Below are positions 7,113-19,697 of a stretch of DNA of 64,000 nucleotides, piece after piece; within the stretch, counting starts at the first letter, position 1, and the number at the start of each line of letters is the position of its first letter. The notes under the pieces are model-generated. The model had not been told where the DNA came from. It was given only the letters and a program-made list of their open reading frames with translations, and did not search any database. Location: NCBI RefSeq assembly GCF_033063295.1, contig NZ_JAWJZH010000001.1:372001-436000 (forward strand), given 5' to 3'. Made by a program: the position numbers and the translations under genes. This DNA is from Nitrosomonas sp. Is35 (GTDB lineage Bacteria; Pseudomonadota; Gammaproteobacteria; Burkholderiales; Nitrosomonadaceae).

Positions 7113-7778
7113 TTAAACGGCTGATTCTTTTCTGCGGTGTGCTATAAATCCCATCAAACCTAAACCGGCCAGAAGCATGGCGTAGGTTCCCGGCTCTGGA
7201 ACAGGACTCAGGGAGTCGTTTGTGCTGAATGTTGTGAAATCACCAGTCCCTCCAATCCTGAATTGGGCTTGCTGGCCGCCGTCACAGCAACCTTCAAGGC
7301 CGTAGAGGTTGAGTGTGTGATAGCCGGCAGCGAGGTTCAATGTATTGATACTCAAATACTGCGATGAATCGCTGTAGCTGCCATTCCACCACATATCGTT
7401 TGTTTTGAAATCATATGCTAAACCATCGACAAAAATGGCTCCGCCGTGACCAAAATCAACACCGGCACGAATTTGCCATGCCCCCGCATTGGCTGGGGAT
7501 ACATAAAAATCAACAGTTGATTTAAAGGCTATGTCAGTTGTCGAGCCACCAGCAAACAATCCATGATTGGAAATGTTGTCGTAAATTGCAGGGGTTGCAA
7601 TTCCGTAACCAATTGTTGGGATTGCAACGGCTGAATCAACTACGGATTGATATGCTGCTGCGTCAATTTGAGGACCCGCGGTTAAGAAACCGGTTTCAAT
7701 TGTTATTGAACTGGCATTAGCACCGCCAAATAATGCAAGCGATATTGCGGTAACTGATAATGTGAAAGTTATTTTCAT
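7113..7778 (-). CDS. CCXG-type PEP-CTERM sorting-domain protein
   Basis: A secreted protein of 221 residues. It has an N-terminal signal peptide (MKITFTLSVTAISLALFGG, cleavage probably after GANA) and a C-terminal PEP-CTERM signal: VPEPG, a hydrophobic helix and the basic tail HRRKE. PEP-CTERM proteins are processed by an exosortase and usually go with exopolysaccharide production. The middle contains GLEGCCDGGQ, the double-cysteine-glycine motif of a PEP-CTERM subgroup, in a region resembling a PA14-like beta-sandwich (IFVDGLAYD). The ATG at 7776-7778 follows an AGGAG site; the upstream in-frame start at 7799 lacks one. It is monocistronic, with its own terminator. No exosortase gene lies in the window. 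Confidence 0.88.
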   Translation of the reverse strand: MKITFTLSVTAISLALFGGANASSITIETGFLTAGPQIDAAAYQSVVDSAVAIPTIGYGIATPAIYDNISNHGLFAGGSTTDIAFKSTVDFYVSPANAGAWQIRAGVDFGHGGAIFVDGLAYDFKTNDMWWNGSYSDSSQYLSINTLNLAAGYHTLNLYGLEGCCDGGQQAQFRIGGTGDFTTFSTNDSLSPVPEPGTYAMLLAGLGLMGFIAHRRKESAV

Positions 7779-8514
7779 AAGACTCCTGTTATGCAGCATT
7801 AAGTTGTTAAAGTACTTAGGATATATGGTTCGTCATCTCTAACCAGCACAGAACAAATCAAAGTTAAATTGCTCGATGAATGAATGCAATTGAACAACAT
7901 CATAGTTTCTATCCATCCTCATGAATGTTAATAGAATCTCAGCCGATCAACTATGCGAAAAATCACAGCTCATCGTTTAATAAGCCCTGCGCGATTGATT
8001 TATCGATATATATGGAAACAGCTTTAGAAAGAAGAATATTTTTTAAATTTTGGGGTTACAAATGCTGTGGATAACTTTGTGAGTAATTCATGTATTTGAA
8101 AATTTAACTCATCGATTTCTAAAGATTTCTATTGGTTTGTGTACTTGTTTTACACATTGATTATGAGCTAATTATCATCAAGTTATTACTGCTTTTTATG
8201 CTGCGTGCTCATTGGGTCAAATGAAATCCATAATTGACTCAGTTTGTGGATTGTTTAAATGATCGAATAAAAATTAAGGTGTATTGAATCGATAGAGAAT
8301 TTTTTGAGTTGTTTTGAATGGAATTTTTCTTTCAAAACGTCGATATAAAACCGATTTTTTGCTTTATTCGAGCTATCTGTGTAAGAAAATATGAGTATAA
8401 TAGTAAGAAAATACCCTAGGTGGTGTTTTTAAGATAATGATTATATTGTAATTGGTTCGAAATATCCGTGCGTTATAAATGACATAATTGATTTAAGATT
8501 ATTTTAAGTTAGCG
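7779..8514. other. AT-rich intergenic region between the PEP-CTERM gene and the polysaccharide operon
   Basis: About 735 bases of AT-rich DNA between divergent genes. It carries DnaA-box element copy B (8066-8178). A TATAAT hexamer at 8396-8401 could be the -10 of the polysaccharide operon, but no good -35 lies 16-18 bases before it. No coding frame is supported. Confidence 0.6.
8066..8178 (+). repeat. DnaA-box intergenic element, copy B
   Basis: Starts with TGTGGATAACTTTGTG, which contains a perfect DnaA box at 8066-8074 and is identical to copy A over 16 bases. It keeps TTTCTAA, TTGG and GATTATG at the same offsets and ends in ATTATCAT exactly 113 bases from the first base of the box, as in copy A. 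It lies between the PEP-CTERM gene and the polysaccharide operon. Confidence 0.75.
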
Positions 8515-9897
8515 ATGCTTATATTTTTCTCCCAAGAGAAGACTGATTTATTGGATCCGTATCAGGATCTTTTTGAAATTTGCCATTTCAGTGATTTTTC
8601 GGACTGGGAGAAAAATAAAATCATTCCTTCCGCGTTTATCATCGCGGGAAATGATAAACACTATATTGCGTCGATTCTTGGCAAGATACGCAGAGATGAC
8701 GAAGTTTTTGCGTCGCTGTGTTTTGCAGCGAATCCGGTGGCGGCATCTGATAACTTGTTGCTCGATGGTCAATTGCCGCAACCTCCGGTTTTGCTGGAAG
8801 TGGTAAATCAAGTTGAGAACTTGCTGAAGTCGCTGAAGGGCAATGAGACCTATATCTCCCACCAAGGACGGTTAATAAAATACTTGTGGTTACGCCCTGA
8901 TTTCATCCTTCAGCCGCACCATGAGTGGCAAAATCCCCGTTTTTATCGCTATCCATTGTTGGAAGCGTTGAGTCAGGACAGATCCGATTCTTTCGAGTGG
9001 CTGCGCAATCTCGCCAATAACAAAATAATTGAACCTTTGACGATGCTCGACCGGCAGCGCGAATGTGCTTATTGCCGCTCGGCGCACTTGAGTTTTATCG
9101 ATATATGCCCGAACTGCCAGTCGATCGATATCAAACTGCAAGCTTCCTTGCATTGTTTTACCTGCGGTTGTGTCGATGTGCAAGATAAATTCATGCATAG
9201 CGGTACGCTGGTTTGTCCCAAATGCCATACGCATTTGCGGCATATTGGCAGCGACTACGACCGGCCTATCGAGAATTATCGCTGTCAGTCTTGCAGCCAC
9301 TCGTTTATAGAAGGCGATGTGCAAGTCCGCTGCGCGATGTGTGAGAAAGAGATGAAACCGGGTGAGCTCATCTTGAATGAAGTGCACAGCTGGCGCTTAA
9401 GCGATAAAGGAAGAACGGTTGCGTTCCGGGGTGAAGTATTCGACTTGTCCTCGGGGTTTGATCAGCTGGATTTTATTTCCCGTGAGTTATTCCTGCACGA
9501 TCTTGATTGGCAGATGGTTACATCCCGGCGTTATCCCAATGTGCATTTCAGTTTGTTCGGAATCTACTTCGCCAATTTGCCGGATCTGGTCGAACTTTTT
9601 AACCACGCGCGCCTGCTGCAAATGCTCGAAGCCTTTGCGCAACGATTGAGAAGCTTGCTCCGGACTCCGGACCTTTCCACGCGGACTTCGGAGAATATGC
9701 TGTGGTTGCTTTTGCCGAATACGGATGAGCAAGGGCTGGGCGGTTTTCAAAAACGTATCGAAAGCAGTATGAACGTACTGCTGGAAGAAAGTGAGCATAA
9801 GCTGGATTTCCGTTTTATCGGTATTTCTTCGCGAAATATACCCGAGAAGGAAAGCGCTCCGCTCCTGCTGGCCCGTCTTGCGGGCGAGTTGCTATAG
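8515..9897 (+). CDS. Multi-zinc-ribbon protein, TackOD1-like with degenerate GGDEF-like C-terminus
   Basis: A 460-residue cytoplasmic protein with no signal peptide or membrane helix. Its centre holds six CxxC pairs: Cys184/187, 198/201, 214/217, 234/237, 257/260 and 273/276. This is enough for about three zinc sites and matches my recollection of the TackOD1 output domain. The last 130 residues follow the strand pattern of a GGDEF domain (for example LWLLLPNTDEQG), but the GGDEF motif is absent (TRTSEN in its place), so it should not make cyclic di-GMP. It might still sense a nucleotide or act as a scaffold. The next gene starts three bases after its stop, so it probably regulates or activates the membrane glycosyltransferase. 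That role is inferred. Confidence 0.7.
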   Translation: MLIFFSQEKTDLLDPYQDLFEICHFSDFSDWEKNKIIPSAFIIAGNDKHYIASILGKIRRDDEVFASLCFAANPVAASDNLLLDGQLPQPPVLLEVVNQVENLLKSLKGNETYISHQGRLIKYLWLRPDFILQPHHEWQNPRFYRYPLLEALSQDRSDSFEWLRNLANNKIIEPLTMLDRQRECAYCRSAHLSFIDICPNCQSIDIKLQASLHCFTCGCVDVQDKFMHSGTLVCPKCHTHLRHIGSDYDRPIENYRCQSCSHSFIEGDVQVRCAMCEKEMKPGELILNEVHSWRLSDKGRTVAFRGEVFDLSSGFDQLDFISRELFLHDLDWQMVTSRRYPNVHFSLFGIYFANLPDLVELFNHARLLQMLEAFAQRLRSLLRTPDLSTRTSENMLWLLLPNTDEQGLGGFQKRIESSMNVLLEESEHKLDFRFIGISSRNIPEKESAPLLLARLAGELL

Positions 9898-9900
9898 TTC

Positions 9901-11226
9901 ATGGAAAGTCTGAATCAAGCGTGGAGCTTTTTTCTTATCGCAACGTCGCGCTTCCAGGATATCGAGTACGTCTTCATGCTGATTCCATTCGTACTGTTTT
10001 TTGAATTACCGCTGTATTTTGTCAATTGGATGAGCGTTTTCCGCTATCTGTTTAAAAAATCGGTGGAAGCGCCGGTGTCATTTCCTTACTACCCGCGCGT
10101 AACTTGTGCGATTACCTGCTACGCCGAAGGAAAAGCAGTGCAGAGTACAGTGATCTCTTTATTGGAGCAGATCTATCCGGGACATATTGAAATCATTGCG
10201 ATGGTCGATGGCGTGCAAAAAAATTTGGCTACTTATCAGGCATTGAAAGAACTCGTGCCCGTGGTTGCCAGTTATCCCAAGCGTTCATTGGTCATCATTC
10301 CGAAAATTCAACGCGGTGGCAGGGTTTCATCATTGAATGCCGGACTAAGCCGAGCACAAGGTGAGGTTTTTTTCGCTTTGGACGGCGATACATCGTTTGA
10401 TAATCAAATGGTGAACTCCGCTGTATCGCACTTTCGCAATCCTGATATTGTCGCGGTGACGGGGCCGATGCGTGTGCGTAACGCCAGAAAAGCGATCATC
10501 ACCCGGCTGCAGAGTTTGGAATATATGTTGACCATGCAGATAGGGAAACTGGGGTTTGCGAAACTGAATGTCATTAATAACGTCCCGGGGGCGTTCGGCA
10601 TTTTTAGAAAGTCCTTTATCCAGAAAATTGGCGGATGGAATACCGGGACCGCCGAAGATCTTGATTTGACTCTGCGTATCAAGCAATACCATCAACGTTA
10701 TCCGCATCTGAGGATTGAGTTTGAACCCGGTGCGGTTTCGCATACCGATGCGCCGGAAAGTTTCAAGGATTTTCTGAAGCAGCGCCTGCGCTGGGATGGC
10801 GATCTTTGGTATATCTACTCGAATAAACACAAGTACGGCATTTCTGCGGCGACCATGGGGTGGAGTAATTTTATATTTCTACTCTGGTACGGCATTCTGT
10901 TTCAGATCGTCATGCCTTTTTCTATCGTGATTTATACGGTCTATATGGCGGTAAAGCTGCCGATGCTTACTTTTTTTCTAAGCATGGTGCTGGTCTATTT
11001 ATTCTATTTAAGCCTGATTACCCTGCAATACATTTTTTATCTTGCGCTCGTCTCAGACAGAAAATGGGAGGACTGCCAAGCTGCTTTGATCCTGCCAATT
11101 TATCCGCTGTTCCAGTTTGTTTCACGCGTCTGGAGCGCTTGTGCAATCTTAAACCAGATACTGAACAAAGGGCACTTGGATTCTGCGATGGCGCCTTTGT
11201 GGGTGCTTAAAAAGGGAAAACAATAA
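9901..11226 (+). CDS. Membrane family-2 glycosyltransferase (processive polysaccharide synthase, PgaC/hyaluronan-synthase-like)
   Basis: An inner-membrane GT2 enzyme of 441 residues that should polymerise a sugar from UDP-sugars while passing the chain across the membrane. Visible features are an N-terminal helix (residues about 22-40), the GT-A core with DGDT (Asp161, Asp163), the acceptor-site TAED (Glu252-Asp253), and the processivity motif QRLRW (Gln294, Arg297, Trp298). A cluster of membrane helices follows from about residue 318 to 410. This matches PgaC, HasA and NodC-type synthases. Sugar specificity cannot be read from sequence. It is the enzymatic centre of a four-gene operon and is packed between the zinc-ribbon protein and the TolC-like gene with only 2-3 base gaps. 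Confidence 0.88.
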   Translation: MESLNQAWSFFLIATSRFQDIEYVFMLIPFVLFFELPLYFVNWMSVFRYLFKKSVEAPVSFPYYPRVTCAITCYAEGKAVQSTVISLLEQIYPGHIEIIAMVDGVQKNLATYQALKELVPVVASYPKRSLVIIPKIQRGGRVSSLNAGLSRAQGEVFFALDGDTSFDNQMVNSAVSHFRNPDIVAVTGPMRVRNARKAIITRLQSLEYMLTMQIGKLGFAKLNVINNVPGAFGIFRKSFIQKIGGWNTGTAEDLDLTLRIKQYHQRYPHLRIEFEPGAVSHTDAPESFKDFLKQRLRWDGDLWYIYSNKHKYGISAATMGWSNFIFLLWYGILFQIVMPFSIVIYTVYMAVKLPMLTFFLSMVLVYLFYLSLITLQYIFYLALVSDRKWEDCQAALILPIYPLFQFVSRVWSACAILNQILNKGHLDSAMAPLWVLKKGKQ

Positions 11227-11228
11227 AA

Positions 11229-13394
11229 GTGCGCGTTTTCCCGATACTGATGTTGCTTTTGATGCTGACAGCCAATGCAGCCGCTGAGGTTAAAACGTTG
11301 ACCGAGTTTTATACGCATCTGGAGCAAGCCGCGACGGTGTTGAAAGCGAAGGCCGATTTGGAGGCGCAACGCTCAAATTTAAATGTGCAGGAAGCGCAGA
11401 AAGGCTGGGAAATATTTGGCGGAATATCGGCTGGTTATCAAAAAAGCCCTTTTGCCAGAGAACCTTTCGGGCATTTCTTCGATCCGATGGGGCGGATCGG
11501 GGTACGTTATCCCTTGCTAGGCAGTGCGGAGAGGCAGCAACGGGCGATCGATGATGCCGCGATGCAAGTTAAAATAGAAGATGTCCGCCTGGATTGGAGC
11601 AAACGGCTGGCGCGGCTCTTTATGGAAGAAAACTACGCGGCGTATTGGAGCGCAAAAAAAATGCTGGCTTTGACCGAAGCCTACTTGCGTTTGCGCGGCG
11701 ACGGTGTGATTTCCATCCTGCATAAACGGCGCGAAGCGGGTTTGTTATTCATGTCGGATTATCTCGAGTTTCTTTCCGCTTTCGATCGCGCGGAACGATC
11801 GCAAATCGAATTCGGCAATAATCGCGATCAAGCACTGATCAGACTGGGTTATTTGACGAATTCGGAAATACGGCCGTTCGAGCCCGTAAAACCAGTTTTG
11901 CATGCGATCGACAGCAATGCGCCGATCGATATCGAGCAATTGGATCTGAAAATACTGCAAGCGCGCATAGAAAATATTCAAAAGACCAAAGAGACCGAGA
12001 ATTGGCGTGGCATTGATTCGGATGTCAATGCCACCGCATTTGGCGGTCCGGCCATTCCGCATCCCTCGCCTGAATCCATGCAAATGGGCTATGGCGGCTC
12101 AGTCGGTTTTAATTTCCGCATGCCGATTGAGATTATGAGTGTGCGTAAGAATGAAGCATCGCGCTTGAACAGTCTATTGATCAGTCTGCGAGCCGACTAC
12201 ACGCATCGCGATCAGGAACTGCAACACGAATTCCGTGCTTTGCTCAGCAGTTATCAACAGCTTGCGCAGCAAATTAAATTTCAGCATACGCGACTTGAAG
12301 CGGCGCGTGAGTTGATCCGTGAAAGACATTTGCGCCTCAAGATGCTGGATGGCGATGTGATCGAGAAATATTTTCAGGCGGTGAATACATATTACCGGGT
12401 GGCGATCGAGAACGTCGAAACGGAATCGGAACAATGGAAGCTGCATATCCGGTTACGGCAATTCATTACGCTGTTGGAGGGAAAAGGCCGGGATATTCAC
12501 CCGGAAATCAACCTAAGCCACTTGACCGATCCACTGCAGCAAGCGGCATCGTTTCTTATCAGCGGAGAAAAAACCAAGGCTGCGCCAAAGCGCACCAGTT
12601 TCTCTGCTGCCGGTAATGCAGAAGTTTCGTCCGGGCGCGTTGCCGTGTATGTCTGGAACTTTGACAAATTGAGCACGCAACCCGGTTTATGGGAGAAGAA
12701 TCAAACGATCGAAATCGATCGTTTCCTGATTTCTTTGAATCAGCAGCAGATTGCAAAATTTGCCGTAAATCCCGCACCGCTTAAAAAATTTCTCACCGAA
12801 GCGCAGCGGCGAGGGAAAAAAGTTGAATTGCTGTTAGGCGATCCCGACTGGATTCTGCCGGAGCAGCGCGAGAAGCTGCTCATGATCGTCAAGAAATTGA
12901 GCAACATCAATTTCGATGGACTGCATTTGGATATCGAGCCGGATCAACTGGAATCGAACTTGCCTGGCAAGGCGCGTCTGGAGGAGTTGATCGAAACGGT
13001 GCGCCAAGTGTCGGCTGTTTCTCCGTGGCCGGTAGGCGCCAGTATTCATCCGCGCTATCTGACGAAAGCGGCATCATTTGATATTTGCGTGCCCTGTGAA
13101 CTCAAAGCGAAAGGAATCAAAGAGATTACTGTCATGTATTACGCGATGAATCTGACGAATATCGTTACTGCGCTCAAGTCGGCCATGAACCAATATCCGG
13201 ATCTGTTATTTAGTCTGGCGCAAAGTCTGGAACCAGAATTGGGTCCGGAAAATAGTTATGTGCATAAGCCGCAGTCCATTTTTATCCATGCAATGAAACA
13301 ATTGCAGGATCAACTCCGGGCCCCTAATTTTACCGGGCTAGTTATTCAATCATGGCAAGACTTGGTAAGCTATCTTCATGAAAATACGCTTTAA
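11229..13394 (+). CDS. TolC-like outer-membrane protein fused to a glycosidase-like TIM-barrel domain
   Basis: A 721-residue exported protein starting at GTG. After a signal peptide (to about residue 19, ending TANAAA) come about 420 residues of long helices with the repeated arrangement of TolC/outer-membrane efflux proteins. From about residue 475 to the end is a separate domain resembling a glycoside-hydrolase TIM barrel: VAVYVWNFD, a helix-strand series, then FDGLHLDIEPD with Asp568 and Glu570 placed like the acid pair of GH18-type folds, followed by PVGASIHPRYL and ITVMYYAMN. TolC proteins do not normally carry such a domain. The gene lies between a polysaccharide synthase and an HlyD adaptor, so a combined export and trimming role is inferred. 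Confidence 0.78.
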   Translation: MRVFPILMLLLMLTANAAAEVKTLTEFYTHLEQAATVLKAKADLEAQRSNLNVQEAQKGWEIFGGISAGYQKSPFAREPFGHFFDPMGRIGVRYPLLGSAERQQRAIDDAAMQVKIEDVRLDWSKRLARLFMEENYAAYWSAKKMLALTEAYLRLRGDGVISILHKRREAGLLFMSDYLEFLSAFDRAERSQIEFGNNRDQALIRLGYLTNSEIRPFEPVKPVLHAIDSNAPIDIEQLDLKILQARIENIQKTKETENWRGIDSDVNATAFGGPAIPHPSPESMQMGYGGSVGFNFRMPIEIMSVRKNEASRLNSLLISLRADYTHRDQELQHEFRALLSSYQQLAQQIKFQHTRLEAARELIRERHLRLKMLDGDVIEKYFQAVNTYYRVAIENVETESEQWKLHIRLRQFITLLEGKGRDIHPEINLSHLTDPLQQAASFLISGEKTKAAPKRTSFSAAGNAEVSSGRVAVYVWNFDKLSTQPGLWEKNQTIEIDRFLISLNQQQIAKFAVNPAPLKKFLTEAQRRGKKVELLLGDPDWILPEQREKLLMIVKKLSNINFDGLHLDIEPDQLESNLPGKARLEELIETVRQVSAVSPWPVGASIHPRYLTKAASFDICVPCELKAKGIKEITVMYYAMNLTNIVTALKSAMNQYPDLLFSLAQSLEPELGPENSYVHKPQSIFIHAMKQLQDQLRAPNFTGLVIQSWQDLVSYLHENTL

Positions 13395-14451
13395 TCAACC
13401 AGAAAATAAAGCTCCGGATACCGACCGGGGATTACGGGTTCAATATAGCGCCGCCAAACGAGCCGGCAGGCCGTGGCGCTGGTATTTGATCATCGCCATT
13501 TCCAGCCTCCCGGTGGTGTATTTGCTCGGGACGATTATTTGGGACACGATCAGCATTGAGGCCAATGGCCGCATCCGGGTACCTAGCTTTACCGTGCGTA
13601 CCGCTGTGGATGGCTATGTTGAGCAGCTTTTTGTCGAGCCGTTGCAGACAGTTTCCGAAGGGGCGCCGTTAGCTGCGCTGGTGAATACTGCATTGCTGGA
13701 TAGCCGTGACCGGTTGCAGGTGGAGTTGGACGGGTTGAAACAGGAAAAGCATAAGATGTTGTTGCAAGCCGATGATTCCAGAACGAGCTCGGCTCAGTTG
13801 TTGAGATTCGCGCATGAACAGAAGCATTTCGCATCCCAACGCTTAAGTCAGTATGAAACCCTGTACAAACAAGGTGCTGCAACACAAGCTGAAATTGCGC
13901 TGGCGCGAAGTCAATTAAACTCGGCGCTGGAAAATCTGGTGGCGCTGGAGAAAGCGCAACGCCAGGAACGTGACCGGATGTATAGCCAGGAACAAGGTCA
14001 GTCGCCGGAAATACGCATGCTGTCAAACCGGATCAATCAGCTGCAACTCGAATTTGATAAGACTCAGGATCAAGTCCTGCAGTTAAGCCTTTTTGCGCCA
14101 TCGGGCAACGGCATGGTGACAGAGATGTTTACGCAACCCGGAGAGTTTCTGGGCCGCGGTCAGGCCTTGCTTGAGATCATATTTCTCGAAAAAGTGCATA
14201 TCGATGCATTCATTCCGCCAAAATACCAAGACTATGCCGTCGTGGGACAAATGGTCACGGTCAAATTCCCCAACGGAGAAAAAGCCAAGGCAAAAATAAT
14301 TTCCGTGCCCGGTGTGATGCAAAAGTCTACGACAGCTGAAATTAACCCGTTGGAAACGGTTCGTTTTGCAATTCTGGCGCAATTGGAATTTGTTGGAAAC
14401 GTGAAAAACCGGTTAATCAATGGGATGCCGGTTACGATCTATTTGCATTGA
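13378..14451 (+). CDS. HlyD/EmrA-type periplasmic adaptor protein
   Basis: A 357-residue membrane-fusion protein. One N-terminal helix lies at about residues 31-52. The split lipoyl-like domain begins at NGRIRVPSFTVRTAVDGYV, and a long coiled-coil hairpin spans about residues 105-225. The second lipoyl half includes LFAPSGNGMVTEMFTQPGE, and a beta-barrel domain ends with GMPVTIYLH. Such proteins bridge an inner-membrane transporter to a TolC channel. It overlaps the TolC-like gene by 17 bases, so the two are translationally linked. No ABC or MFS pump is encoded here, so the inner-membrane partner is probably the GT2 synthase or something encoded elsewhere. Confidence 0.9.
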   Translation: MKIRFNQPENKAPDTDRGLRVQYSAAKRAGRPWRWYLIIAISSLPVVYLLGTIIWDTISIEANGRIRVPSFTVRTAVDGYVEQLFVEPLQTVSEGAPLAALVNTALLDSRDRLQVELDGLKQEKHKMLLQADDSRTSSAQLLRFAHEQKHFASQRLSQYETLYKQGAATQAEIALARSQLNSALENLVALEKAQRQERDRMYSQEQGQSPEIRMLSNRINQLQLEFDKTQDQVLQLSLFAPSGNGMVTEMFTQPGEFLGRGQALLEIIFLEKVHIDAFIPPKYQDYAVVGQMVTVKFPNGEKAKAKIISVPGVMQKSTTAEINPLETVRFAILAQLEFVGNVKNRLINGMPVTIYLH

Positions 14452-14869
14452 CAAACCAACCTGCCAAAATGCGTTGAATCCCGGAAATAGGAAGCCAGCC
14501 GGTTTCATGTTCCGCCAGGAATATACTCCGCTCCTAGAGGTATCACCTTCTTTACCCTGAGCAATTTTGATTTATCCACATTTTTTGTGGATAACATTGT
14601 GTATAAGATTTATTTTCACTCATTAACTTAATGGACACTAAAGAGAATTCTCTCTCTGCCTAATAACTTAACACTTTAATTATGTATTATGTATCATCCG
14701 GTTATGAGCATTTTCTTTTTCCATATATCAGCCGCTATGTTTTGTATGGCGTGTTAACATTGACCGCTGTGTGCTTTGGATAAGCGGATAATTGATACAA
14801 CTGGCATTCGCAAGTTTGCTTTCCTCTCTTAAGCTGTTCAATCGGGTGTTCTGAAATTTTTACAATGTT
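14452..14869. other. Intergenic region after the polysaccharide operon
   Basis: About 420 bases without a gene. It holds DnaA-box element copy C (14572-14697). No T-tailed hairpin marks a clear terminator for the upstream operon, although the 9-base inverted repeat at 14572-14594 with its T-rich loop could slow transcription. Confidence 0.6.
14572..14697 (+). repeat. DnaA-box intergenic element, copy C
   Basis: Two perfect DnaA boxes in inverted orientation (TTATCCACA 14572-14580, TGTGGATAA 14586-14594) are separated by five T residues. From 14586 the element follows copies A and B: TGTGGATAACATTGTG, then TAACTTAA blocks, AATTATG, and ATCAT 112 bases from the box start. It lies between the polysaccharide operon and the ABC-F gene. 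Confidence 0.7.
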
Positions 14870-16723
14870 ATGCTGAATATTCAGTCTTTGACTTATTTGC
14901 AAGGCGGGGTTCCGCTGCTGGAAAATTGCCATTTGCAGATTTTTGCCAATCAGCGTGTGGGGTTGGTCGGTAAAAACGGGTGCGGGAAATCCACTTTGTT
15001 TCGTTTGATCCGGGCAGTGATCAAGCCGGATAACGGCGAAGTCAGTTTGCAATCGGGCAAAACCGTTGCCTTCGTTGAACAGGAAATCGTTAACTCGGCG
15101 CAGTCTGCCATTGAATTTGTACTGGATGGCGATGTGGAATTGCACCGGCTGGACAAGATTCTGGCTCAGGCTGAGCACGATGCCGCCTGGTTTGAAGCGC
15201 AGCAGCGCTATGAAGCCATTGACGGTTATACCGCACGCGCCCGAGCGGCGCAGCTATTGAGCGGACTGGGTTTTGCCAATGCCGCGCTGGAGCAGCCGGT
15301 TGATCATTTCTCGGGCGGCTGGCGGATGCGCCTGAATCTGGCGCGCGCCTTGATGCACCGTGCCGATTTGTTGTTGCTCGATGAACCGACCAATCATCTG
15401 GACCTGGAAGCAATTCTCTGGCTGGAACAGTATCTGGCGCGCTATCCGGGCAGCTTGGTCGTCGTATCGCATGATCGTGAGTTTCTGAATGCGTGCGTCA
15501 ATCGCATCGCGCATATCAATGACCGGAAAATCGACAGTTATAGCGGTAATTATGATGATTTCGAGCGCGCGCGCGCCGAGCGTCTATTGCAACATAATCA
15601 GGCTTTGCAGCAACAACAAAGACAAATTGCGCACATGGAGGATTTTGTGCGGCGCTTCCGCGCCAAGGCCACCAAGGCCAAACAAGCGCAAAGCCGCATC
15701 AAAGCGCTGGAACGCTTGACGCGTCTGGCGCCGCTGGCTGTGGAAGATGGTCACTACGAGCTGCAAATTGAAGCGCCGGAACGGAGCCCCGATGTGTTGT
15801 TGCGCGTACAAGACATGAGCTTTGGTTACGGCGGTCATCTACTGTTTCAGCATGTCCATCTGATCTTGCAGGCGGGTGCGCGGATTGCATTGCTGGGACC
15901 GAACGGTGCGGGAAAGTCGACATTGATCAAACTGCTGACCGGAGAAATTCAACCGGTAACCGGTTCATTGGAATGGGCGCAAAATATCCGTATCGGTTAC
16001 TTTGCGCAGCACCAGCTGGAGAATCTCGACGGTAAGGCGACGCCTTTGCAGCATATGCAGAAACTGGCGCCGGCGCAAATCGAACTGGATTTGCGGAAAT
16101 TTCTGGGGCGGTTTGGGCTTGGCGGAGAGGGTGAAGACCGCCCAGTCGCCAGTTTTTCCGGAGGCGAAAAGAGCCGTCTGGCGCTGGCTTTATTGGCCTG
16201 GCAAAAACCGCATTTGCTGTTATTGGATGAACCGACCAATCATTTGGACCTGGACATGCGCGATGCACTCACGTTAGCGCTGGAAGCCTATAGCGGCGCC
16301 GTGGTGCTGGTTTCGCACGATCGCAGCCTGGTGCGTGCGGTGGCGGATGAATTGTGGCTGGTGGCGGATGGCAAAGCACAGCTGCTCGATGGCGATCTGG
16401 AGGATTACAAAAACTGGATAGAAGCGCGCCGTTCCAGTGAAGCTGCGGAATCAAAGCCAGCTTCGCAAAAAATCCAGCCTAAAGCAGCAGCGAAACCGAA
16501 CAAGAAAGCATTATTGTCCAAACAAGCAAAACTCGAAGCGGCTCTGGAGATTGCGCAAAGGGAATTGGCCGAAGCAAACCGCCGTTTAGCGGATCCGGCG
16601 ACGTATACGAACTGCCCGCGTGAGGAAATTGATCGGCTCAGCACCGTTCATGCGGCACTGGAGAAAAAAGTGGCTGAACTTGAAGAAAACTGGCTGGAAC
16701 TGGAAATGGCGATGGAAGAATGA
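14870..16723 (+). CDS. yheS: ABC-F family ATPase, YheS-like
   Basis: A soluble ABC-F protein with two ATPase domains and no membrane helices; such proteins act on the ribosome. Domain 1 has Walker A GKNGCGKST, signature FSGGWRMRLNLARAL and Walker B LLLLDEPTNHLDLEA. The linker (about residues 245-310) is rich in Gln and Arg. Domain 2 has GPNGAGKST, FSGGEKSRLALALL and a second LLLLDEPTNHLDL. The C-terminal coiled coil follows a Lys/Ala/Ser-rich spacer. The N-terminus resembles YheS more than Uup or EttA. It stands alone on the plus strand and converges on fliE. The start lacks a clear ribosome site. Confidence 0.88.
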   Translation: MLNIQSLTYLQGGVPLLENCHLQIFANQRVGLVGKNGCGKSTLFRLIRAVIKPDNGEVSLQSGKTVAFVEQEIVNSAQSAIEFVLDGDVELHRLDKILAQAEHDAAWFEAQQRYEAIDGYTARARAAQLLSGLGFANAALEQPVDHFSGGWRMRLNLARALMHRADLLLLDEPTNHLDLEAILWLEQYLARYPGSLVVVSHDREFLNACVNRIAHINDRKIDSYSGNYDDFERARAERLLQHNQALQQQQRQIAHMEDFVRRFRAKATKAKQAQSRIKALERLTRLAPLAVEDGHYELQIEAPERSPDVLLRVQDMSFGYGGHLLFQHVHLILQAGARIALLGPNGAGKSTLIKLLTGEIQPVTGSLEWAQNIRIGYFAQHQLENLDGKATPLQHMQKLAPAQIELDLRKFLGRFGLGGEGEDRPVASFSGGEKSRLALALLAWQKPHLLLLDEPTNHLDLDMRDALTLALEAYSGAVVLVSHDRSLVRAVADELWLVADGKAQLLDGDLEDYKNWIEARRSSEAAESKPASQKIQPKAAAKPNKKALLSKQAKLEAALEIAQRELAEANRRLADPATYTNCPREEIDRLSTVHAALEKKVAELEENWLELEMAMEE

Positions 16724-17184: not shown

Positions 17185-18504
17185 TTAGCCCGACATCCGG
17201 TATTGCTGCAATTTATACCGTAGCGTCCGTTCGGAAATCCCCAGCTTCTTTACGGCCAGTTTGCGGGAACCATTAACGGCTGCCAAAGTTTCCAGGATAT
17301 GTTTGCGTTCGAGCGTTTTCATATCTTCAGAATCAGAAGATGATTCCTGATAAATAGCTTCCGCGGCTTGGACTGGATCCGCTTGCGGCAAATGGAGATG
17401 CTCGGTATCAATGATGTGATCCGTTGCCAGAATCATGGCGCGTTGCATGACATTTTCCAATTCCCTGACATTGCCCGGCCAGGGATAGTGCGTTAGTGTG
17501 CTGATTGCAGCTTGCGTCATGGTGCAGGGCGGCTGCGCCGAACCTGTTGCTGCTTCGATAAGCACGCGTTGCGCCAGAGGTTCGATATCCAGCGGCCGTT
17601 CCCGCAAGGGAGGTATTTCGATCGGAAACACGTTGAGGCGGTAGTACAAGTCTTCACGGAACCGCCCGCTTTTAACGGTTGCCATCATATCGCGGTTGGA
17701 AGTCGCCAGAACACGGATATCCAATTTGATTGCTTTATGCCCGCCGACGCGCTCCACTTCTCTTTCCTGCAAAACGCGCAGCAATTTGGCTTGCAGTTCC
17801 AGCGGCATTTCGGAAATTTCATCCAGCAGCAATGTGCCGCCTTGCGCTTGCTCAAACTTTCCGGGCTGAGCCTGTGCCGCGCCGGTGAAAGCGCCTTTTT
17901 CATAACCGAATAAAGTCGCTTCCAGCAGATTTTCCGGAATCGCCGCGCAATTGATCGCGACAAAGGGCTTGGCCGCGCGTAGGGAATGCTGATGGATAAA
18001 ACGCGCGATGACTTCCTTGCCGCAGCCGCTTTCACCCGTTAGCATAACAGTTGCCGGTGATTGCGCCACCCGCTTGGCCAGGGATAGTAATGCCCGTGTA
18101 CGCGGATCCTTGGCAACGACGTTGTCATCCTGTTCCGGTTCGGATAAGGCGTAGCGCTTGATATGCGCCAGTAAATTGTCCGGATCGAACGGTTTCAGCA
18201 AGTAATCGCATGCGCCTGTCTGCATCGCGGCAACGGCTTTTTCCACATCGCCATAGGCCGTCATCAGCAATACCGGTAGTTCCGGGTTAAATGCCTTGAT
18301 TTTTTTTAATAATGTAAAGCCGTCAACGGGGCGCATTTGCACATCGCTGACGACCATGCCTACCTCGGATTCTTGCAGAATAGCCATGGCAGTATTGCCG
18401 TTCGAAGCGGGCAATGCCGGATAACCGGCCAGTTTCATCGTGGTGCAGATCGCTTCCAGCAAATCCTGATCGTCTTCTACCACCAGAATGGGCAGTGCTT
18501 TCAT
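17185..18504 (-). CDS. flrC: Sigma-54-dependent flagellar response regulator (FlrC/FleR)
   Basis: A 439-residue NtrC-type activator. The receiver domain (residues 1-120) carries VVEDD, the phosphoacceptor in VVSDVQM and the Lys in LLKPFD. The AAA+ domain (about 135-365) has Walker A GESGCGKE, the sigma-54 contact loop GAFTGA and Walker B GGTLLLDEI. A Fis-type helix-turn-helix is at the C-terminus (RKLAVKKLGISERTLRYKL). In flagellate proteobacteria this protein turns on class III basal-body and hook genes once phosphorylated by FlrB/FleS. Its ATG overlaps the TGA of the kinase gene and has a GGAG site. Its place beside fliE and fliF supports the flagellar assignment. Confidence 0.92.
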   Translation of the reverse strand: MKALPILVVEDDQDLLEAICTTMKLAGYPALPASNGNTAMAILQESEVGMVVSDVQMRPVDGFTLLKKIKAFNPELPVLLMTAYGDVEKAVAAMQTGACDYLLKPFDPDNLLAHIKRYALSEPEQDDNVVAKDPRTRALLSLAKRVAQSPATVMLTGESGCGKEVIARFIHQHSLRAAKPFVAINCAAIPENLLEATLFGYEKGAFTGAAQAQPGKFEQAQGGTLLLDEISEMPLELQAKLLRVLQEREVERVGGHKAIKLDIRVLATSNRDMMATVKSGRFREDLYYRLNVFPIEIPPLRERPLDIEPLAQRVLIEAATGSAQPPCTMTQAAISTLTHYPWPGNVRELENVMQRAMILATDHIIDTEHLHLPQADPVQAAEAIYQESSSDSEDMKTLERKHILETLAAVNGSRKLAVKKLGISERTLRYKLQQYRMSG

Positions 18505-19697
18505 AATTTATCTCCTCTATTTCTTGGCAGCCGGATCATAAATTCGCTTCCCTCGCCCGGCGCTGAATGAATTTTCACCTCACCGCCCATGGATTCAATG
18601 ACACCGCGGACGATGGCTAAGCCCAGCCCCGTGCCTTCCGCGCGCGTGGTGAAGAAGGGTTCGAATAATCGTTCTTGTAATGCCGCTTCGATGCCTGGAC
18701 CATTGTCATGAACACTCAGGATGATATTTTTTCCTTCCAGGCGGCTGGTCAGAATAATTTTCCCGCCTGTAGCCGATGCTTGCATGGCGTTTTCCAGCAG
18801 ATTGATCATGGCGCCGCATAAAGCCTGCCGATCTGTTATCAAAGCTTGTGCCATGCTCTGATCCTGCACAATAAATTGCAAATCCTGCTGTGTTATTTGT
18901 GGCTCTATGACTTGATGCAACTCCGCTAGCAAATCGCTGATGACGACACGTTCGCGCCGCCTTGCTTCGCCTTTCACAAAACGCAGCATATCTTTTGTTA
19001 AATGCTCGAGATGGTGCAGGCGTTCAATGGTTTTTGTTGCGAATTTGCGCCGCTCGACGGGCGTCAAAGCATCGCTTCCCAGGTGATTGGCATAAAGCAA
19101 TGCGGTCGAAAGCGGGGTGCGTAACTGATGTGCCAGATTGGCCGCCATCTCGCCCATGGAAGTCAAGCGTTGATTACGCCGGATCTGTTCCTGTATGGCA
19201 TAGGCTTCAGTGATATCGTTCACCAGCAAAATCCGCCTGCCAGCTGCGTCGGTGGCGCTGCTCTCGATGCGAATACGCCGTGGCTGCGCGGTTTGCTGCA
19301 GTTTTACCAGCCACTCATTGACGATCGCCGTTGGCGACAAACGTTCTTGCGTTACTTGCCGCCAATCCCCGCCAACCAGGGATTCGCCAAGAATGGCGAT
19401 AGCAGCCGGATTGACTTGTTCGATGCATTCCTGAGCGTCAAGCGCGATGACGCCGCCCGGTAATGCGTTCAATAATAGGCTTAACTGCTGCGATAGATTT
19501 TCCTTAGCGATTAATTGTTTGTGCAATTCACCGTTGGCAAGCGCCAGTTCACGGGTGAGCTGCGCTACCTGGTGCTGTAAATCCTGATAGACGCCGGATA
19601 GCTGCTCCGATGCTGCATTAAAAGCCGCGAACGCCAGCTTGAGCTGCTCTTGATCGGCCGGTATCGGTTTAATTTCACTGACGTTTTCGGTTTGCAC
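18501..19697 (-). CDS. flrB: Flagellar sensor histidine kinase (FlrB/FleS)
   Basis: A soluble PAS-containing histidine kinase of 398 residues. A coiled N-terminal helix (about 20-70) leads to a PAS-like domain (about 75-170). The H-box follows (MAANLAHQLRTPLSTALLY), with the phosphorylated His about 190 residues in. The ATPase domain has N-box NLLENAMQA, G1 DNGPGI and G2 GTGLGLAIVRG. No membrane helix is present, as in FlrB/FleS. It starts at GTG and is followed directly by its partner regulator. Divergent from fliF. Confidence 0.9.
   Translation of the reverse strand: MQTENVSEIKPIPADQEQLKLAFAAFNAASEQLSGVYQDLQHQVAQLTRELALANGELHKQLIAKENLSQQLSLLLNALPGGVIALDAQECIEQVNPAAIAILGESLVGGDWRQVTQERLSPTAIVNEWLVKLQQTAQPRRIRIESSATDAAGRRILLVNDITEAYAIQEQIRRNQRLTSMGEMAANLAHQLRTPLSTALLYANHLGSDALTPVERRKFATKTIERLHHLEHLTKDMLRFVKGEARRRERVVISDLLAELHQVIEPQITQQDLQFIVQDQSMAQALITDRQALCGAMINLLENAMQASATGGKIILTSRLEGKNIILSVHDNGPGIEAALQERLFEPFFTTRAEGTGLGLAIVRGVIESMGGEVKIHSAPGEGSEFMIRLPRNRGDKL

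Follow-up and report, generated by a model that had tools for sequence, protein, structure and literature searches.

Gene content of the operon

This study concerns a four-gene cluster of Nitrosomonas sp. Is35 that lies at positions 8515-14451 of the 64,000-nucleotide stretch of DNA analysed here (the window; the source genome, G000, has 3,305,793 bases). Four open reading frames (ORFs) on the + strand follow one another with gaps of 3 nt and 2 nt and then an overlap of 17 nt. Gene 1 (8515..9897, 460 aa) encodes a TackOD1 protein homologous to MxdA of Shewanella oneidensis, gene 2 (9901..11226, 441 aa) a membrane glycosyltransferase family 2 (GT2) synthase homologous to MxdB, gene 3 (11229..13394, 721 aa, GTG start) a TolC-family outer-membrane protein with a predicted C-terminal domain resembling glycoside hydrolase family 18 (GH18), and gene 4 (13378..14451, 357 aa) an HlyD-type periplasmic adaptor homologous to MxdC. 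A preliminary description had named four tightly packed genes of these families, and both the ORF coordinates and Pfam agree with it. Judged by its sequence, it represents an exopolysaccharide operon of the Mxd type into which a TolC-GH18 gene has been inserted.

The gene 1 product matches TackOD1 (PF18551) with an E-value of 3.8e-68, the zinc-ribbon domain spanning residues 113-295 (about 8851-9399, + strand), and GGDEF (PF00990) with an E-value of 3.2e-5, a degenerate GGDEF-like domain at residues 322-433 (about 9478-9813, + strand). The first of these had been recognised in the preliminary description as zinc-ribbon/TackOD1-like, but the second had been overlooked. Gene 2 falls into the GT2 families of Pfam and bears the DGD, AED and QRLRW motifs of processive synthases. 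Its nearest curated family is PgaC/IcaA, of which it falls far short (140.9 bits against a cut-off of 422.3); against the CelA model it scores 18.3 bits, where the cut-off is 699.1, and no PilZ domain was matched by Pfam in the window cluster. The OEP family (PF02321) covers about residues 37-412 of gene 3 (6e-19). Gene 4 has one N-terminal hydrophobic stretch and matches HlyD_D23 in Pfam (2.1e-14); its scores against the EmrA, resistance-nodulation-division (RND) and type I HlyD models are all below the cut-offs. The ORF list and Pfam revealed no outer-membrane gene in the window cluster other than the TolC-GH18 gene.

Relation to the mxd operon of Shewanella

The mxd locus was located by the published primer Pmxd-fw-300 (PMC3691769), which matches one, and no more, of the 152 genomes in the family of G216. 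The genes 3' of the primer site encode a 462-aa TackOD1 protein (PF18551, 4.7e-71), followed by a GT2 and an HlyD protein and then by a protein of 122 aa. MxdA is 37% identical to the gene 1 product over 300 residues, MxdB 45% identical to that of gene 2 over 416 residues and MxdC 27% identical to that of gene 4 over 316 residues; in mxdABCD of S. oneidensis MR-1, mxdABC are therefore homologues of genes 1, 2 and 4 in like order. The two operons differ in that mxd has no TolC-GH18 gene, whereas it has mxdD (L118 7461-7829, 122 aa, with a single hydrophobic stretch at its N-terminus and nothing matched in Pfam) where the window has no fifth gene. The window does hold a TackOD1 protein with a degenerate GGDEF domain, a GT2 directly downstream of it and an HlyD gene in the same operon. 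Since a counterpart of MxdD is lacking, and MxdD is not known to define the system, we use the label 'Mxd-type' and not 'mxdABCD'.

MxdB is described as a membrane GT2 and MxdC as resembling an efflux pump; deletion of mxdA or mxdB in S. oneidensis leads to loss of aggregation and of most of the biofilm, and mxdB mutants do not form three-dimensional biofilm (PMC3691769). An outer-membrane exit for the Mxd product is not named in the available portions of PMC3691769, PMC7666153 and PMC11395469. The window operon suggests a route by which that product could leave the cell.

Conservation of the gene set

The 20 loci whose synthase is closely related to that of the window (17 titled Nitrosomonas and three 'Proteobacteria bacterium') all carry the same four genes in the same order and on one strand, an arrangement that cannot be put down to chance. 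The preliminary description would have been undermined had the genes not been conserved together, and this survey, which it had proposed, came out in its favour. In one of these loci, from a metagenome-assembled genome of Nitrosomonas ureae (L021 7615-11120), GT2 and TolC are each read in two pieces, reflecting either decay or an assembly error. The alignments (A1 and A2) contain 18 sequences, one from the window and the others from 17 of the 20 loci, the near-identical L004 and L005 and the broken L021 having been set aside. Within the genus, TackOD1 exceeds the curated cut-off in 36/85 genomes, which makes the operon an accessory one.

A survey of 299 genomes from the phylum gave TackOD1 above the cut-off in 11 (12 places), and one of 300 genomes from the order in 10 (10 places), rows below it being excluded (1/12 genomes for the phylum, 2/12 for the order and 9/45 for the genus). 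With the window counted once, the two proteobacterial surveys give 21 places, and the neighbourhoods of all 20 others were fetched. GT2 adjoins TackOD1 in 21/21. HlyD is likewise part of the cluster in 21/21, being cut by the contig end in L042, scoring weakly in L062 and L064 and recognised by Pfam in L063. One excluded genome, G088, has neither a GT2 nor an HlyD homologue in the neighbourhood of its sub-cut-off match (L047); the start of that ORF resembles that of RadA.

A channel gene is present in 14 of the 21 clusters (11 clear TolC and three divergent TolC-like), absent from six (L037, L039, L041, L045, L046 and L061) and undecidable in L042, at the contig end. Three gene orders occur: order A is TackOD1-GT2-[TolC]-HlyD, order B is TolC-like-HlyD-TackOD1-GT2 and order C, in L062-L064, is hydrolase-HlyD-TackOD1-GT2-TolC. 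All 10 scanned relatives of orders A and C match OEP, and L058 was assigned by a score of 1318 bits to the window protein; the divergent channel genes of the surveys (L040, L043 and L044) are of order B. A small tetratricopeptide repeat (TPR) protein is encoded just 5' of the channel gene in two B-order clusters, L043 (13945-14553) and L044 (14667-15365). The contrast drawn in the preliminary description, of a TolC/HlyD path instead of TPR proteins, does not hold throughout, since these two related clusters open with one. The L044 channel ORF (11860-14670) has an N-terminal extension; an AMIN domain was matched in 1/8 B-order N-terminal halves (1e-6), and this is probably the L044 half, the sole one extended in this way.

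A tree of 32 GT2 rows (L042, L058, L080, L088 and L112 left out) places mxdB within branch A, in a group with six other TolC-less clusters (98/96). One clade holds all eight B rows, with their divergent channel-hydrolase, and another the three C rows; a fourth clade comprises the alphaproteobacterial-type, TolC-less rows L045, L046 and L116. This placement shows that the channel and hydrolase accompany three deep branches of the synthase, and suggests that they were probably lost in the Mxd branch.

The TackOD1, GT2 and HlyD triad is also borne on plasmids, in Plesiomonas, Photobacterium, Alisedimentitalea (where TackOD1 lacks GGDEF) and Palleronia (L113-L116). On a 29-kb mobilizable plasmid of Aeromonas caviae (L112 5656-8025) there is a TackOD1 gene followed by the start of a GT2 gene, within which the record ends; the rest of this cluster may lie across the record start.

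Search for a pump

The preliminary description had stated that no ATP-binding cassette (ABC) or major facilitator superfamily (MFS) pump is present, and ORFs and Pfam bear this out: the window cluster encodes none. The downstream neighbour (14870-16723) is an ABC-F protein by Pfam and curated models, a member of a translation-factor family and no transporter. A scan of 21 fetched loci (L036-L047 and L057-L065, with L080-L091 and L112-L116 not included) for ABC-ATPase motifs picked up three ORFs, none of which lies within a cluster. Pfam was run on 72 of the 138 flanking ORFs, with a tally of 25 of 100 families, and MFS_1 occurred in 2/72; from membrane-helix counts these are probably L037 3386 and L041 3575, which lie outside the clusters and are separated from them by opposite-strand genes. 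Cluster genes are contiguous in the ORF lists, with no foreign gene in between. Homologous clusters that regularly held a pump would have spoken against the preliminary description, and none was found in the clusters scanned.

A GH18-like domain in the channel protein

The C-terminal domain of gene 3 (residues 461-721, 12609..13391, + strand) matched no Pfam family even at an E-value of 10. Its structure is predicted as a TIM barrel with a mean predicted local distance difference test score (pLDDT) of 86.4, and GH18 chitinases are among the best structural matches of the model. The hydrolase domain proposed in the preliminary description thus reappears as a predicted fold, though Pfam is silent. 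D568-x-E570 and M636-x-Y638 are the putative catalytic residues, and D568, E570, M636 and Y638 are invariant in 14/14 copies of the domain, their correspondence to GH18 being by motif and order and not by residue superposition. At the positions of the GH18 signature DxxDxDxE, the window domain has D, H, D and E. The predicted fold and the D-x-E and Tyr residues thus point to GH18, and a curated sequence match does not; since there is no such match, we call the domain 'GH18-like'.

A hidden Markov model (HMM) of the domain identified it in 14/14 clusters that have a TolC-type channel (fused in 11 and a separate gene in three) and in 0/6 TolC-less clusters. Since the model was trained on the window and nine fused domains that it later recovered, only L058, the three copies that are separate genes and the six clusters lacking the domain count as independent tests. 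A search seeded with the domain returned nine strong new matches (E <= 5.4e-19), with HlyD adjoining in 9/9; eight of these also have TackOD1, GT2 and a TolC-like stretch, and the ninth, L080, stops at a contig edge. In G800 (L089 4517-10405) a copy of the domain, a 378-aa ORF, has a GT2 and an outer-membrane barrel of the YaiO type beside it, along with a HEAT-repeat protein. The L089 GT2 has a very long branch in the tree, and this locus may be the equivalent of the TolC version with a barrel in its stead.

The TackOD1 protein as a candidate c-di-GMP switch

In gene 1 of the window, SENML stands where the GGDEF motif would be, and RTPD (residues 383-386, 9661..9672, + strand) occupies the position of the RxxD I-site, the c-di-GMP-binding motif. 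Among diverse TackOD1 proteins the RxxD arginine is present in 26/27 and the aspartate in 27/27, and canonical GG[DE]EF in 0/27. In control GGDEF domains from the same genome the canonical motif is present in 19/20, the arginine in 18/20 and the aspartate in 18/20, these being the best-scoring 20 of 32 matches, a choice that favours canonical motifs. Loss of GGDEF together with retention of RxxD indicates that the enzyme motif has gone and the ligand site has been kept. The conserved arginine is by itself no proof of binding to cyclic di-GMP (c-di-GMP); we predict that the gene 1 product is a c-di-GMP receptor and activator. S. oneidensis MxdA is reported to bind c-di-GMP (PMC7666153, PMC11395469). 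Gene 1 also has a weak match, below the cut-off, to PelD_GGDEF (PF16963, 3.7e-4). For the TackOD1 protein AlphaFold2 gave a model of low quality (pLDDT 44.0), which was set aside.

The name TackOD1 comes from archaea, mainly Thaumarchaeota, in which the domain occurs in type IV pilus loci; in 2018 its function was termed obscure and it was noted in some bacteria (PMC5847659). No mention of TackOD1 was found in the 2019-2026 literature of the limited collection searched. Here, this archaeal-named domain turns up in ammonia-oxidising bacteria, and it gains a consistent partner, the GT2 synthase. On the Palleronia plasmid (L116 4125-5822) an annotated response regulator contains TackOD1, and the genes after it encode a GT2 and an HlyD-like protein; an archaeal REC-TackOD1 form resembles this protein (PMC5847659).

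A model for polymer export and its alternatives

We propose, with a probability of roughly 0.64, that the four genes form an Mxd-type exopolysaccharide operon, synthase-dependent and under c-di-GMP control, with an outer-membrane exit of its own, the synthase extruding its chain into an HlyD-TolC conduit. The gene content, homology, conservation, predicted fold and invariant residues are described above, and the binding of c-di-GMP by MxdA and the need of mxd for biofilm come from the literature; direct docking, passage through the tunnel, the identity of the polymer and the role of the hydrolase are inferred. The MxdB-like GT2 would polymerise an activated sugar, probably of the N-acetylglucosamine (GlcNAc) type, and push the resulting chain through the inner membrane. 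The adaptor, which is MxdC-like, would dock on the synthase at the position usually taken by a pump and connect it to a trimer of the TolC-family protein, and the chain would leave in a single step with no ATPase or antiporter. The C-terminus of TolC faces the periplasm, and the GH18-like domains, which would sit there in the trimer, might shorten the chain, release it or remove mis-targeted polymer, by analogy with BcsZ, PgaB and PelA in their respective systems. Binding of c-di-GMP at the degenerate GGDEF domain of the TackOD1 protein would activate the synthase. In TolC-less relatives, including S. oneidensis mxd, a TolC encoded elsewhere would serve; OEP proteins are encoded elsewhere in the three searched genomes that have a TolC-less cluster (G216, G290 and G228).

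That the synthase may feed the adaptor and channel had already been suggested in the preliminary description, and it is still the best reading, but two findings weigh against it. The first is the lack of TolC in 6/21 clusters. The second is that Pfam matched OEP in 0/8 of the B-order N-terminal halves (among L040, L043, L044 and L083-L088), and that against solved structures these gave just two chance-level matches (E 0.033 and 0.06). A profile comparison aligned the B-order halves with the A- and C-order TolC halves end to end over 324 columns (probability 94.1%, E 1.3e-7). It is for this combination of end-to-end alignment and missing OEP match that we call them 'divergent TolC-like'.

More broadly, the operon may represent a separate outer-membrane exit class for synthase-dependent polysaccharides, a c-di-GMP-gated, pump-free tunnel in which a processive GT2 replaces the pump of an HlyD-TolC assembly and each TolC subunit bears a chitinase-like domain to process the chain as it leaves, with TackOD1 as a general switch of this synthase family and mxd borrowing a housekeeping TolC. 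We lean towards this wider view by a little.

The best-surviving alternative accepts an Mxd-type synthase and takes HlyD and TolC-GH18 as a periplasmic scaffold or processing station only, with another porin exporting the polymer. HlyD-like domains act as scaffolds in Alg44 of the alginate system, and the six clusters with no TolC gene, like the GH18-like copy beside a GT2 and a YaiO-type barrel in L089, fit such a role. Against this, the window cluster has no other outer-membrane gene, the hydrolase and TolC, the divergent form included, occur together in 14/14 clusters that have either, and TolC proteins are open trans-periplasmic ducts. We consider a scaffold role unlikely.

A second alternative makes HlyD and TolC parts of a type I or drug-efflux exporter that has its pump gene at another locus and shares no more than an operon with the synthase. 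The sub-threshold scores of gene 4 against the EmrA, RND and type I HlyD models could be read in this way, as could the 14 further OEP stretches in the source genome, but HlyD accompanies TackOD1 and the synthase in all 21 places and on the plasmids (L113-L116), in clusters where no pump gene was seen, and the set remains together while the gene order varies among synthase branches. We regard such an exporter as very improbable. Less probable still is a glycolipid or protein-linked glycan as the GT2 product, with the hydrolase in recycling: the synthase does lie far under the curated cut-offs of the matching polysaccharide-synthase families, but it has the processive DGD, AED and QRLRW motifs, and loss of mxdB abolishes three-dimensional biofilm (PMC3691769).

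Sequences surrounding the operon

An AT-rich intergenic stretch (7800..8514) lies 5' of the operon and is the likely site of promoter or control sequences; a promoter consensus scan upstream of the operon gave 8 matches against a shuffle mean of 12.5, that is, no excess. The upstream neighbour, on the opposite strand (7113-7799), is a CCXG-family PEP-CTERM surface protein, an indication that the genome has an exosortase system. Further downstream, 17185-19697 encodes, again on the opposite strand, a two-component pair with an AtoS/AtoC-like, sigma-54-dependent regulator.

Comparison with known systems

Type I secretion shares the HlyD and TolC families with the window operon, but no ABC transporter was seen in the clusters and a polysaccharide synthase stands in its place; on that ground we rejected this assignment. 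A plain poly-N-acetylglucosamine (PNAG) operon of the Pga/Ica/Hms type was rejected on the sub-threshold synthase score and the lack of PgaA and PgaB; the window operon has neither that porin nor PgaB, and its hydrolase has the GH18 D-x-E pair. The Pel system, through its receptor PelD, has in common with gene 1 a degenerate GGDEF domain with RxxD, and differs in that TackOD1 here replaces the GAF and membrane segments of PelD. The Pel synthase, PelF, is a GT4, unlike the GT2 here. A cellulose operon was rejected on the CelA score.

The closest precedent is cyanobacterial. Maeda et al. proposed in 2018 that cellulose leaves the cell through XcsA, XcsB (HlyD) and TolC, with the endoglucanase XcsC (PMC7582838, PMC12430437), and the Xcs-TolC system has been described as unique to cyanobacteria (PMC8205485). 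In its components XcsA-XcsB-TolC resembles the window operon, with a processive GT2, an HlyD adaptor, a TolC channel, a glycoside hydrolase (putative in the window) and no pump, and it is under c-di-GMP control, as predicted for the window operon. It differs in that its GT2 is of the cellulose-synthase type with PilZ, whereas the window GT2 fails the CelA cut-off and has no PilZ match, and in that the T. vulcanus genes are scattered and the hydrolase is a separate endoglucanase not fused to TolC. A 2025 review notes that the cyanobacterial model lacks experimental validation and that the genes concerned do not share an operon, and raises the question of whether clusters organised as operons function in the same way (PMC12430437). 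A full-text search of a limited collection, in the portions available, found no description of a proteobacterial system with this gene combination.

The idea of synthase-HlyD-TolC export is accordingly not new, and the distinct design suggested in the preliminary description is not without precedent, since the cyanobacterial proposal precedes it and the TackOD1-GT2-HlyD core is that of Shewanella mxdABC. What is new is a single operon with all the parts, a hydrolase built into the channel and the link to Mxd. The matrix of Nitrosomonas is relevant to nitrifying flocs and biofilms in wastewater treatment. Compared with the scattered Xcs genes, the presence of all parts in one operon, with the hydrolase fused to the channel, makes the question of whether a processive synthase is able to pass its product on to such a tunnel directly testable.

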